Positions 3,953 through 10,104 of a stretch of DNA of 12,427 nt are shown here, piece by piece. The notes under the pieces were generated by a model. The model searched no databases and was not told the origin of the DNA. It saw nothing but the letters and a program-made list of their open reading frames with translations. Within the stretch, counting starts at the first letter, position 1; each line of letters opens with the position of its first letter. Origin of the DNA: Promethearchaeota archaeon (GTDB taxonomy: Archaea > Asgardarchaeota > Lokiarchaeia > Sigynarchaeales > SOKP01); the NCBI GenBank assembly GCA_016839635.1, contig JAEOTV010000041.1:1-12427 (forward strand), given 5' to 3'. The translations under genes were made by a program, and so were the position numbers.

Positions 3953-5326
3953 TTAAGTAGCAATTTTCTTTTTCTTCATTTTTGCAATTTCACTCCAGAA
4001 ATATTTAATTGTTACCAAATACCACAATAGCAGTATAGGAATCATTAGTACAAATGAAATTAATAAGTTTATTGGAAAATTTATTATTCCAACCTTTAAA
4101 TTTCCAAGAGGAAGCGGCATAATTACAGCTTCAACGAAAACCAAAAATAATAATATAGAACTTAAAAGTATTATCATTAAAGCAATTATTCCTTTAATTC
4201 TTGGAAATTTGTATAATAAAAAAATGGTGGGAGCTATAAAAGCAAGAAGGCAAATAATTAAGATAAAGATGTTCAAGTTTCCTAGAGTAACCTGCATAAG
4301 CAAGATTGATAAGATTGAAAAGAAACCAGAAATTATTGATATTACATAGAAATTTATTACCAATTCTGGTTCTTTTAATGGTCCCCTTGCTAAAATTAAA
4401 CGAGGTAAGGTTAAAACAGCATCTTTTTGATCTGAGGCTTTAATTCTATCATCCTCTAGTAAAATTATGTCTTCTTTACTCTCTCTGACACCACTACTAC
4501 TTTCAAAAAACCCACGTATGGAATAAATATAATAAAAACTGTTAAAAATATGAATTAATAACACACAAAAGGTAGCAACCTCTAATGATCCAAATAACAT
4601 TATACATGCTATCATTGCCCCCATACTTAGTGTACCTACATCTCCAGGAAAGATTCTTGCAGGATACTTATTAAAAATAAAAAAAGGAATTATTACTGCT
4701 ATGACTGGAACTGTAAAAATCACACCTTCAGCGGAGTTCCAGATTAGACTACAAATAAATAAAAAACATATGGCAATTAAACATGTTCCTGAACCTTCAC
4801 CGTTATACCCTTCTAACATATTTACGGTATTAGTAAAAACAGCGACAATTAGAGGTACTAGGAAAGGATATATAATTGTCAATCTTGTTCTATCGAGAAA
4901 CGGAATTGTTGGTGAAGTTATGGTTATAAAACCAATAAAATTTGCTATAAAGATGATGCCACCCGAAAATATTGATAAAATGATTTTATATCGTGAGCGT
5001 AATTTTCTTCTATCATCTATATAACCAATAAATCCAGCTAATAACACAGTTAGAAGAAAAATTAGAGTTTCATTAAAAAATGTTGGAAAAAATATTATTA
5101 AAAGAATTGAGGAAAATACTAAACCAACTAGTAAACTTAATCCTCCAGACTCTGCAATTTCAGGTTTTTCATTTTTATGAATATCATTCCCAACGAATCC
5201 TTTCCTTTTCATGAAATTTACTAAATAAGGGAGGATAATATAAGTTATTGAAAATCCAACAATAAATATAATACATAGGAATAGAATATCTAAAAAATTC
5301 CAATTTAAATCAGTAATATATGTCAT
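3953..5326 (-). CDS. ALG7/DPAGT1-like polyprenyl-phosphate sugar-1-phosphate transferase (MraY/WecA superfamily)
   Basis: 457 residues with about ten or more membrane helices. Superfamily landmarks appear in order: the cytoplasmic FVGNDIHKNEKPEIAESGG segment at 44-62; the catalytic Asp pair D104-D105 (GYIDDRRKLRSRYK); TNTVNMLEGYNGEGSG at 165-180, whose spacing and NxLxGxNG core resemble eukaryotic ALG7/DPAGT1; and NKYPARIFPGDVGTL at 219-233 with D229 at the position of the third catalytic Asp of DPAGT1. Such enzymes move a sugar-1-phosphate, usually GlcNAc-1-P, from its UDP form to dolichyl or polyprenyl phosphate, the first committed step of lipid-linked N-glycan assembly. A luminal or cytosolic insert at about 275-320 (acidic, then LPRLILARGPLKEPEL) corresponds in position to the sugar-recognition loop of DPAGT1. 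It is the first gene of the minus-strand membrane run, downstream of the tRNA. The family is clear; the sugar is inferred. Confidence 0.9.
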   Translation of the reverse strand: MTYITDLNWNFLDILFLCIIFIVGFSITYIILPYLVNFMKRKGFVGNDIHKNEKPEIAESGGLSLLVGLVFSSILLIIFFPTFFNETLIFLLTVLLAGFIGYIDDRRKLRSRYKIILSIFSGGIIFIANFIGFITITSPTIPFLDRTRLTIIYPFLVPLIVAVFTNTVNMLEGYNGEGSGTCLIAICFLFICSLIWNSAEGVIFTVPVIAVIIPFFIFNKYPARIFPGDVGTLSMGAMIACIMLFGSLEVATFCVLLIHIFNSFYYIYSIRGFFESSSGVRESKEDIILLEDDRIKASDQKDAVLTLPRLILARGPLKEPELVINFYVISIISGFFSILSILLMQVTLGNLNIFILIICLLAFIAPTIFLLYKFPRIKGIIALMIILLSSILLFLVFVEAVIMPLPLGNLKVGIINFPINLLISFVLMIPILLLWYLVTIKYFWSEIAKMKKKKIAT

Positions 5327-5461
5327 TTTTTTCTTTTTGTTTAGTTTAAAAACTCTGTTAGATCACAGAATGTAAAGTTAAAAATATTTTATGTATTAAA
5401 TTTTTTATTTTTCAATATTGAGAAATAAGAAATAAATAGCCCGGCACGGATTCGAACCGTG

Positions 5462-5491
5462 TTCGCTATACACATCATAATGACGTGTATT
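5462..5491 (-). other. tRNA-Gln intron 2 (variable loop/T-stem boundary)
   Basis: This second 30-nt insertion lies between the variable loop and the T stem. It contains a 10-bp hairpin (ATACACGTCA with TGATGTGTAT, one G-U pair) closed by a 3-nt loop. The bulges are AC|A and AA|C, again cut after the second base, with a CGCG/AGCG helix between them (three pairs plus a G-A mismatch). Removal leaves variable loop CGAC followed by a perfect T stem. The architecture closely mirrors intron 1. Confidence 0.78.
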
Positions 5492-5524
5492 GTCGCGGGG
5501 TTCAAGGCCCCAAATGCTTGGCCA

Positions 5525-5554
5525 TTTTGCTTAATACAATAATGTTGTATTAAT
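5525..5554 (-). other. tRNA-Gln intron 1 (D loop, after nucleotide 15)
   Basis: This 30-nt insertion interrupts the D loop. Its core is a perfect 9-bp hairpin, TTAATACAA-CATTA-TTGTATTAA. Splicing after the second base of each 3-nt bulge (AG|A and AA|T) restores a standard archaeal D loop. The helix between the bulges is GTGT with GCAA: three pairs (one a G-U) plus a G-A mismatch. No outer helix is evident, so this is a relaxed bulge-helix-bulge. The exact boundaries are inferred from restoring a canonical cloverleaf. Confidence 0.78.
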
Positions 5555-5617
5555 CTACACCACCGGGCTAATTAAGTAAATAAATGCCAGAATTATGTAA
5601 ACATCATTTAATAATTT

Positions 5618-6263: not shown

Positions 6264-8156
6264 TTATAATAAATAACTTCTTAATTGCTGAATTAATTTA
6301 TCAATCGTGCGGTCAATTTTTCTTCTTCTTTTTTTGAAATTATCTGATAATTTAAGATATGCTGCTCTCGATGGTAATCTTCCTCTCTTATATCTAGATT
6401 CCAATAGTGCAAGACTATCTTTAACACTTATTCTCTCAGCTTCTAAAATGTCTAGTCTTTTTACAATATTTTCAAATACTTCACCTGATTCTATCAATGA
6501 TTTTTTAAAAGGATTAATTTCTTTCTGAATTTCATCGATTTTAGCATTATTTTTATTTAAAATATTTTTATACTTCTTTTTCGCCATTTTTTTCCTTTTA
6601 GCAGCATCTTCTGCTTGTCTAATTTCTAAAATTAGTGCATTTTTTTCCTCATTTAATGAACAATATTCTCTAATTTCATTAACAGGGATATACTGTACTT
6701 TAATAGCAGCGATATCTTTATCTATTTTTCTTGTTTTTCCTACAATAACATATACTGAGGCTATTAATATAATTAAAATAATAATTATAAAAGGTCTTAA
6801 GAGTAAATTAAAAATATCAATAGTAAAAGTGAACTGTATTCTTTTATTTTCTCCCGGAGCGACATAATCTGAAAAAAACACCATTGTGATCATTCCTTGA
6901 GATTTTTTAACAGCGTCAGGAGGGTCGGTTATATCATCGATTTTCAAACATCCATCAATAATTATGTTGATTGTTTGTTCTTTTCCCAAATAATCAAAGG
7001 TGGTTGTAAGTGCATTAATATTAATTGATTCTTGAAACCAATTATTTGAAGAGAAATTCTCAAAAGGTAAATAGTATTCAATATTAAATCTAAACGAAGA
7101 ATTGGGCAGCATTACCACTCGATTTGCTACTAATTCAATAGAAACTGTTTTAGAACTTGTTCCAGGAGTGTTTTCTACATTTACACCTAAAATTTCTCCA
7201 AGATCATCTGAAATATATAATCCATTTGCTGAACCTGGAATGTTAATTAAAATAATTCTTGAAGCTTTAATGCCTAAATTTCTCAATAATATATTCTCTC
7301 GAACTCTGATTATCCCCCAGGGGGAAATAAATATTTCACGAGTAATTTCTTCGATCTCTAATTTATTACTTTCTTGATGTTTAACCCAAATCTGTACTTT
7401 CTTATAATTATCCAAGTTTGTTAAAAAAGGTTCTATAAAATCATCACCAATATCACTACTAATAGTTTCAAAATCATATGTTCTAGCATTGAGACCTGGA
7501 TTATAAAGACCCCAATCATCGGAAATATCCTCATCTTCACCACTAAATACGGGGAAAAAGTAGTAAGCTACTATTTGCCCTTCTGCTTTATATGGTAATA
7601 TTGGAAACGTGAGACCTTTATAGTTAATATAGTGTTCTGGTTCTCCAGTTTCATCAGTTATATAATAAGCTTTAGTTAGATCTCTTAAAACCTGTCTAAA
7701 GATAATAGTTTTCGATTGATATGGTAATAATGGAGAATCAAAGTAAATAGCAAACATTTCGAATTCATTCATTACCATATTTAAACGGTCTGTTAATAAT
7801 GTACTTTCACCTACTAATCTTTCTTCAGAAACACTCGTAGATTCAAAATATATTAGGTTATTTGAATGGTTTAGTGGAATTCCAACTAAAATTGAACTTA
7901 TTGGGTTGTTATTACGATTCTCTATTGTTAAAATATCACGGATTTTTATCAAGCCATACTGACCTAAATCCACCCGTCTATTAATATAAGTTAAAATTAT
8001 ATTTTCTGCTCCTTCTTGACTAATAGCAGGTTTTGGATCAGTTTTCTCATCTCGATTTGAATAATTAAACTCAGAAATTGTCGGAATAAATAAAATATTC
8101 ATAAAAAATACAAAAAATAGTATAAAGATAATTAAAGATCTTGTTCTTTTTGACAT
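6264..8156 (-). CDS. rpn1: Ribophorin I (OST subunit)-like membrane protein
   Basis: 630 residues, close to eukaryotic ribophorin I (about 600). The topology is the same: an N-terminal signal or anchor at 8-27, a large external beta-rich domain to about 450, one membrane helix at about 453-473, and a basic cytosolic coiled-coil tail to 630. Collinear resemblances to human ribophorin I, recalled from memory, include EIFISPWGIIRVREN (274-288) versus VIEVSHWGNIAVEEN; YISDDLGEI versus YYRDEIGNV; the EYYLPFENF segment near 360 versus GYNLPSYEY; the post-membrane KIDKDIAA (477-484) versus SITKDPAA; and the end, KIDRTIDKLIQQL versus KIDHILDAL. In eukaryotes this subunit binds substrates and the ribosome near the translocon within the oligosaccharyltransferase. 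Four N-glycosylation sequons lie in the external part (N31, N97, N352, N367). The gene is divergent from Sec61beta and heads the Trm112-like gene. Homology is inferred by eye, but it covers the whole length. Confidence 0.82.
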   Translation of the reverse strand: MSKRTRSLIIFILFFVFFMNILFIPTISEFNYSNRDEKTDPKPAISQEGAENIILTYINRRVDLGQYGLIKIRDILTIENRNNNPISSILVGIPLNHSNNLIYFESTSVSEERLVGESTLLTDRLNMVMNEFEMFAIYFDSPLLPYQSKTIIFRQVLRDLTKAYYITDETGEPEHYINYKGLTFPILPYKAEGQIVAYYFFPVFSGEDEDISDDWGLYNPGLNARTYDFETISSDIGDDFIEPFLTNLDNYKKVQIWVKHQESNKLEIEEITREIFISPWGIIRVRENILLRNLGIKASRIILINIPGSANGLYISDDLGEILGVNVENTPGTSSKTVSIELVANRVVMLPNSSFRFNIEYYLPFENFSSNNWFQESININALTTTFDYLGKEQTINIIIDGCLKIDDITDPPDAVKKSQGMITMVFFSDYVAPGENKRIQFTFTIDIFNLLLRPFIIIILIILIASVYVIVGKTRKIDKDIAAIKVQYIPVNEIREYCSLNEEKNALILEIRQAEDAAKRKKMAKKKYKNILNKNNAKIDEIQKEINPFKKSLIESGEVFENIVKRLDILEAERISVKDSLALLESRYKRGRLPSRAAYLKLSDNFKKRRRKIDRTIDKLIQQLRSYLL

Positions 8157-8575: not shown

Positions 8576-8869
8576 TTGAAAATTTCAGAATTTCAGAATT
8601 TGATTAAAGGTCTTTATTTTAATAAAGACCAAAGTAGAGGGATTAATATGACTTTTATTTGGTTAATTGAAGAAATTGGGGAATTTGCTCGTATACTAAG
8701 AAGTAAGGAAATTAGTATTGCTGATGCTTCAGAAGAATTATCAGATATTATTGCTTGGACAAGTTCTATAGCAAATTTACTAGGTATTGACCTTGAATCT
8801 GCTATTTCAAAAAAATATCCTGGAGTGTGTTTTAAGTGCAAATCAAATCCTTGTGTTTGTGGTAAGTAG
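8576..8869 (+). CDS. MazG-like nucleotide pyrophosphohydrolase, archaeal short form
   Basis: 97 residues forming one all-alpha MazG-type unit. Metal-binding acidic motifs are EExxE at 32-36 (E32, E33, E36) and EExxD at 53-57 (E53, E54, D57), which hold the Mg ions used to split NTPs or dNTPs into NMP and pyrophosphate. The family acts as a house-cleaning enzyme on non-canonical nucleotides. The C-terminus carries CxxC-(4)-CxC (C85, C88, C93, C95), a probable zinc site typical of the archaeal short MazG-like group. The length is normal. Translation starts at TTG, supported by the GGTGAT site just upstream. It lies 43 nt after Sec61beta on the same strand; no functional link between the two is evident. 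Confidence 0.88.
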   Translation: MKISEFQNLIKGLYFNKDQSRGINMTFIWLIEEIGEFARILRSKEISIADASEELSDIIAWTSSIANLLGIDLESAISKKYPGVCFKCKSNPCVCGK

Positions 8870-8985: not shown

Positions 8986-10104
8986 GTGTTTACAATGAGT
9001 CTTTCAGGTAAGAGAATTTGGATTGATATTGAACAGCCCAAAACTGCAATAATGTTTAAATCTCTCTTAAATATGTTTGAAAATGAAGGTGCAAAGATAT
9101 TAACTACTGCTCGAAATTATGATTCCACATATCAAATTTTAGATGATTCTGACATAAGGTATAAAAAAATTGGAATGCATGGTGGTGAAAAATTAGAAAA
9201 TAAGTTAGGAACGTATATAGATCGCTTGAAATCTCTTTTTCCGATAATAAAAAGATTTTCGCCAGATTATTTTGTGACTTTTCTATCCGTGGAAGGAACA
9301 AGAATAGCTTATGGTTTAAAAATTCCCTCCATCGCGATGAATGACGAGCCACGAAATGAACCGGTATGCAAGTTAATCCATCCATTTATAGGTAATATAA
9401 TCACTCCAGAATGTATACCACTAGAATTATATGTAAATCTTTATGCAGATCTCGAAAAAATTATCAGGTATAATGGACTTGATGAAATAGCATGGATTTC
9501 AGAATATACTCCAAATCCAGGCATTCTCGAAAGATTTGACCTAAAAAAAGGAGAATATGTGATAATAAGAACTGAACCTACCCATGCTTCATATCTAATT
9601 CATAAAACTAGACCTGAAGAAACTCAGATAAAAACATTTTTACCCCCAATTTTCAAGGAATTTCCAAATCATAAATTCTTCCTATTAGTTCGTTCAAAAC
9701 TACAAGAAAACTATCTCTCTAAAGGACTTAAAACTCTGAATAATGAAAACAATATTGTTATAACTCAATATCTACCAAATTTAGTGGATTTATGCTTCTA
9801 TGGAGCGTTAGTTATTAGTGGAGGTGGAACAATTGTGAGAGAATCAAGTTTACTAAATGTTCCAAGTATAGAATTTTTTCCAGGAGAATCTGCACCCCAA
9901 GATAAGTTTTTAATAACAAATGGATTTCCTTTGGAACACTTGCGAGATTCAAATCAAATAGTTAATAAAACTATCAGTATCCTTAATCAAGGTCCTACTC
10001 CTGACAGATATAAAACTTCTTCATTTAAAGAGAAAATTGATAAGTTTGACAATCCTAATGAAGTTTGCTTTAAACATGTAAAGAGGAATTTAATAGCAAA
10101 ATAA
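8986..10104 (+). CDS. DUF354-family protein with GT-B-like fold
   Basis: About 370 residues. It opens with KRIWIDIEQPKTAIMF at 9-24, followed by a Rossmann-like pattern (GAKILTTAR), matching the DUF354 N-terminus. In the second half ISGGGTIVRESSLLNVPSI at 277-295 is the conserved glycine-rich, Glu-containing loop that in GT-B enzymes and UDP-GlcNAc 2-epimerases contacts the nucleotide sugar. No signal peptide or membrane helix is seen, so it is probably cytosolic. The family's reaction is not established to my knowledge; nearby sugar enzymes suggest nucleotide-sugar or surface-glycan metabolism. The first in-frame start is GTG at 8986, but ATG at 8995 (residue 4) is a better fit and gives 369 residues. 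An A-rich TATA-like stretch at about 8959-8968 would imply an almost leaderless message from that ATG. The stop faces the GT4 gene stop across 17 bp. Confidence 0.8.
   Translation: MFTMSLSGKRIWIDIEQPKTAIMFKSLLNMFENEGAKILTTARNYDSTYQILDDSDIRYKKIGMHGGEKLENKLGTYIDRLKSLFPIIKRFSPDYFVTFLSVEGTRIAYGLKIPSIAMNDEPRNEPVCKLIHPFIGNIITPECIPLELYVNLYADLEKIIRYNGLDEIAWISEYTPNPGILERFDLKKGEYVIIRTEPTHASYLIHKTRPEETQIKTFLPPIFKEFPNHKFFLLVRSKLQENYLSKGLKTLNNENNIVITQYLPNLVDLCFYGALVISGGGTIVRESSLLNVPSIEFFPGESAPQDKFLITNGFPLEHLRDSNQIVNKTISILNQGPTPDRYKTSSFKEKIDKFDNPNEVCFKHVKRNLIAK

Follow-up and report, generated by a model that had tools for sequence, protein, structure and literature searches.

A ribophorin I gene in a lokiarchaeal contig

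The DNA analysed here (the window) is a stretch of 12,427 nucleotides from Promethearchaeota archaeon, corresponding to positions 1 to 12,427 of contig JAEOTV010000041.1 (assembly GCA_016839635.1). Its minus-strand gene at 6264..8156 (Table 1) very probably encodes the OST1/ribophorin I subunit of a lokiarchaeal oligosaccharyltransferase (OST), with a tail that would dock on the ribosome. Human ribophorin I takes part, at the ribosome, in the attachment of sugars to newly made proteins. The original prediction had described the product as a full-length ribophorin I homologue in an archaeon, and both lines of analysis that bear on this point sustain it. A Pfam search with the family model PF04597 gave a significant score of 47 bits, against a cut-off of 25. 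In the predicted structure, aligned to OST1, the external part consists of two tandem beta domains with the fold of Ost1/OST1, and a cytosolic four-helix bundle is present. The second of these beta domains likewise resembles a domain of LTA4 hydrolase and M1 aminopeptidases. None of the NCBIfam models matched the protein at E <= 1e-3.

Table 1. Features of the window (residue numbers refer to the OST1 protein; aa, amino acids).
Feature	Position	Strand	Evidence
Ribophorin I / OST1 gene, 630 aa, ATG to stop	6264..8156	minus	PF04597 match, 44-row alignment, predicted structure
Hydrophobic N-terminal segment (signal peptide or signal anchor), residues 4-30	8067..8147	minus	Hydropathy; predicted helix 2-22
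First external beta domain, residues 53-258	7383..8000	minus	Predicted strands; structural alignment to OST1; PF04597 match 56-297
Second external beta domain, residues 266-446	6819..7361	minus	Predicted structure; structural alignment to OST1
SPWG, residues 278-281	7314..7325	minus	Sequence alignment
Single membrane helix, residues 448-473	6738..6815	minus	Hydropathy 442-478; predicted helix 448-485
Cytosolic four-helix bundle, residues 489-630, homologue of 8WHN	6267..6692	minus	Predicted structure and comparison
Trm112-like zinc-ribbon protein, 211 aa	5618..6253	minus	PF03966; starts 10 bases past OST1
tRNA-Gln(TTG) gene	5437-5569	minus	ARAGORN after removal of two stretches
Polyprenyl-phosphate GlcNAc/MurNAc-1-phosphate transferase family gene (PF00953)	3953..5326	minus	Pfam match
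MazG-like gene	8576-8869	plus	
DUF354 gene	8986-10104	plus	

The hydropathy profile shows just two hydrophobic segments, the N-terminal one and that of the membrane helix, and the basic character of the tail suggests that the bundle faces the cytosol. An alignment profile of 44 rows was assembled from the window's protein and 43 others, drawn from 120 listed of 248 sequences found. Identity to these 43 relatives ranges from 51 to 90%, the closest named one being that of Lokiarchaeota isolate LW30_13 (89%). The SPWG motif is unchanged across all 44 sequences; human OST1 has SHWG at the aligned position. Relatives also match helical families such as DUF3450, but these hits look generic and were set aside; the window's protein falls below the DUF3450 cut-off.

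Relationship to known ribophorins

The predicted tail adopts the four-helix form found in human OST1 and in that of Candidatus Prometheoarchaeum syntrophicum MK-D1 (WP_147663064.1, PDB 8WHN). Comparison with the MK-D1 protein, confined to the bundle, gave 42% identity. Human ribophorin I (RPN1) is 15-18% identical to the window's protein, its tail being alike by fold only; the archaeal protein presumably resides in the cell membrane whereas human OST1 is found in the endoplasmic reticulum. The solved chains of yeast Ost1 align no further than model residues 475-489 and so show no cytosolic bundle. With respect to this bundle, the archaeal protein is thus closer to human OST1 than to the solved yeast chains.

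The presence of ribophorin I in Asgard archaea is correct and was published for the group earlier. Ost1 and Ost3 are cited as earlier reports in a passage of PMC10307638, which adds five further OST subunits for these archaea, three of them confined to Heimdallarchaeia, and a listing in PMC8813620 has OST3, STT3 and ribophorin as universal among known Asgard phyla. Given the further subunits in PMC10307638, the picture of archaeal OST as a single AglB subunit, to which the original prediction refers, does not hold for this phylum. The novelty that the prediction implies is not supported either: PMC11417166 had already presented OST1 of MK-D1, with a crystal structure of the cytosolic bundle, and had reported that it binds human ribosomes.

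Among 148 sampled genomes of the phylum, 113 gave matches. For the analysis of gene surroundings, 116 loci were collected: the window, L002, L007 and one locus from each matching genome, the 35 non-matching genomes being excluded. The best-scoring OST1 frame was taken at each locus, and frames cut by contig edges (e.g. L083, L095, L102, L106, L121 and L144) were retained and classed by their visible length.

Linkage of OST1 to a PF00953 transferase gene

The PF00953 gene product scores 106.8 bits (cut-off 27) and is a candidate for the enzyme, of Alg7/AglH type, that begins the making of lipid-linked glycans. Its MraY and DPAGT1 scores are nearly equal (38.8 and 38.1 bits), and such scores alone do not separate Alg7 from MraY; it falls far under both NCBIfam MraY cut-offs. 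A search within a 5 kb radius, using a profile grown from the window's gene, placed a transferase gene near OST1 in 67 of the 116 loci; of the 49 loci flanked by 5 kb or more on each side, 34 had one. In this well-flanked set, the linkage was found at 28 of the 30 loci whose OST1 does not exceed 640 aa and at all six with OST1 above 850 aa. Twenty-six loci have OST1 of 641-850 aa (L051, L052, L057-L059, L107, L114-L117 and similar) and lack a detectable transferase gene within 5 kb, 13 of them having 5 kb on both sides.

The transferase gene lies downstream on the same strand at 31 loci; the window belongs here, as do L001-L005 and L007, the named Lokiarchaeal loci. At 23 loci of the long-form group described below, it is found on the opposite strand, 79-316 bases upstream; at one further long-form locus it overlaps the OST1 frame, which was probably called too long. 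The remaining 12 loci show other arrangements. These altered arrangements argue for selection to remain together. Part of the linkage may nevertheless reflect common descent of the region, since tRNA-Gln(TTG) also stays nearby: ARAGORN found it near OST1 at 11 of the 19 loci scanned, namely seven of the eight long-form loci L040-L047 plus L007, L070, L073 and L081. In 18 chosen genomes, PF00953 genes are present in one copy in 17 and in two copies in one; transferase and OST1 are neighbours in 12. No report of the linkage was found in the open-access papers searched, where absence is not absence in print.

Long OST1 forms carrying an FKBP domain

At L040-L047 and other loci with OST1 above 850 aa, the protein carries an N-terminal extension with an FKBP-fold and an Ig-like domain. 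The forms from L040-L047 match the 44-row profile over the external domains and the tail, with E values of 2.5e-27 to 1.7e-38; PF04597 exceeds its cut-off in only one of six long forms scanned. Profile and fold both support the FKBP assignment. The aligned Phe and Asp columns, which we take to be the catalytic pair of active FKBPs, mostly lack these residues (F in 3 and D in 1 of 24 sequences). The stretch preceding the FKBP domain appears DOMON-like by eye, from its motif, and may be such a domain. The open-access papers searched yielded no report of an FKBP-OST1 fusion, which is not to say that none is in print.

Other genes and an interrupted tRNA gene

The minus-strand order downstream is OST1, the Trm112-like gene, the tRNA gene, the PF00953 gene and genes for an M48-type peptidase and a UbiA-family prenyltransferase. 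Upstream lie the plus-strand MazG-like and DUF354 genes and, on the minus strand, genes for a group-1 glycosyltransferase and a type II methionine aminopeptidase. At L001-L005 and L007, the named Lokiarchaeal loci, OST1 again has the MazG-like and DUF354 genes beside it on the opposite strand. Among the 64 loci whose OST1 is no longer than 640 aa, 36 have a Trm112-like gene at most 200 bases downstream of OST1 on the same strand. In the window, this protein falls below the NCBIfam Trm112_arch cut-off; its zinc ribbon is broken by a long insert, the Pfam match spanning residues 9-170.

Initial ARAGORN and Rfam scans missed the tRNA-Gln(TTG) gene, which is interrupted by two apparent 30-nucleotide introns with approximate boundaries, one in the D loop (5525-5554) and one between the anticodon arm and the T arm (5462-5491). 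With both stretches removed, ARAGORN returned a 73-nucleotide tRNA-Gln. In the gap between the Trm112-like and PF00953 genes of relatives (L001, L003-L005, L060-L086), tRNA-Gln is insertion-free (e.g. L070, L073 and L081) or has insertions elsewhere, by eye including the T loop. Intron positions thus seem to vary between close relatives.

Discussion

As far as computation reaches, the identity of the gene as OST1 is settled. Homology to a relative that has been tested makes a ribosome-docking OST subunit the best reading of its function. Sequence homology, the full-length fold, the topology deduced from hydropathy and the conserved linkage to a member of the gene family that initiates lipid-linked glycans make up the computed support. 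The N-terminal signal segment most likely inserts the protein into the membrane, so that the two beta domains would lie outside the cell next to STT3/AglB, followed by the single membrane helix and, on the cytosolic side, the four-helix bundle. By docking on the ribosome, the bundle would keep the glycosylation complex beside the protein-conducting channel, and proteins would thereby be N-glycosylated while leaving the cell. OST1 would assemble with STT3 in the source organism, and its tail would bind the organism's own ribosomes. STT3 is present in all 18 other genomes checked.

Several observations weigh against this assignment. The window contains no STT3 gene. A tail-only sequence profile gave E 1.1 against the human tail and so did not show homology, leaving a likeness by fold only. 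Thirty-five of the 148 sampled genomes are without any match. PF04597 is weak for the clade, matching 25 of the 44 aligned sequences at E <= 0.01 and recovering the gene in three of six related genomes though all six have it; the 44-row profile was used for mapping because the Pfam model alone was too weak. Where OST1 measures 641-850 aa, none of the 13 well-flanked loci has a transferase gene within 5 kb, and the two genes lie apart in six of the 18 chosen genomes (G100, G029, G009, G056, G091 and G094). The OST3/OST6 search also gives matches in five of 14 control genomes, exceeding the cut-off in one, and a portion of its matches are therefore likely other proteins. A search for TRAP beta (PF05753), with matches in 16 of 18 genomes, several in frames above 1,000 aa, was not relied on.

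It is improbable that the protein is a ribophorin-fold surface scaffold, no longer or not yet part of OST, whose charged helical tail serves some other cytosolic contact. Eukaryotic contamination or recent transfer from a eukaryote, suggested by a family long thought eukaryotic and by the BLASTp result given in PMC4973528 (nothing like accessory OST subunits in archaea or bacteria), is made extremely unlikely by seven loci whose records bear the name Lokiarchaeota or Lokiarchaeia, the six longer of which have their genes in the same order as the window between the glycosyltransferase and UbiA genes, by the matches in 113 genomes and by identities of 15-18% to human OST1 versus 51-90% to the aligned relatives.

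Beyond the assignment as an OST subunit, we tentatively entertain, while thinking it somewhat doubtful, that Asgard OST1 is the hub of a pre-endoplasmic-reticulum assembly for translocation, glycosylation and folding. The gene would be tied to the lipid-linked-glycan starter, the tail would sit on the ribosome, and the FKBP-fold domain of the mostly Thorarchaeota-named relatives would bind nascent chains, so that a single chain would fill a role for which human cells bring FKBP11 to the OST translocon.

The window's protein is a well-supported addition to a family connecting archaeal and eukaryotic protein secretion, and it agrees with an ancestral origin of the ribosome-facing tail, which the solved yeast chains lack. 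The OST1-transferase linkage and the FKBP-OST1 fusion are leads worth following, and both are testable: the former joins OST1 with a mostly single-copy Alg7/MraY-family gene in many Asgard genomes, and the latter would put a folding-factor domain on the archaeal glycosylation machinery.
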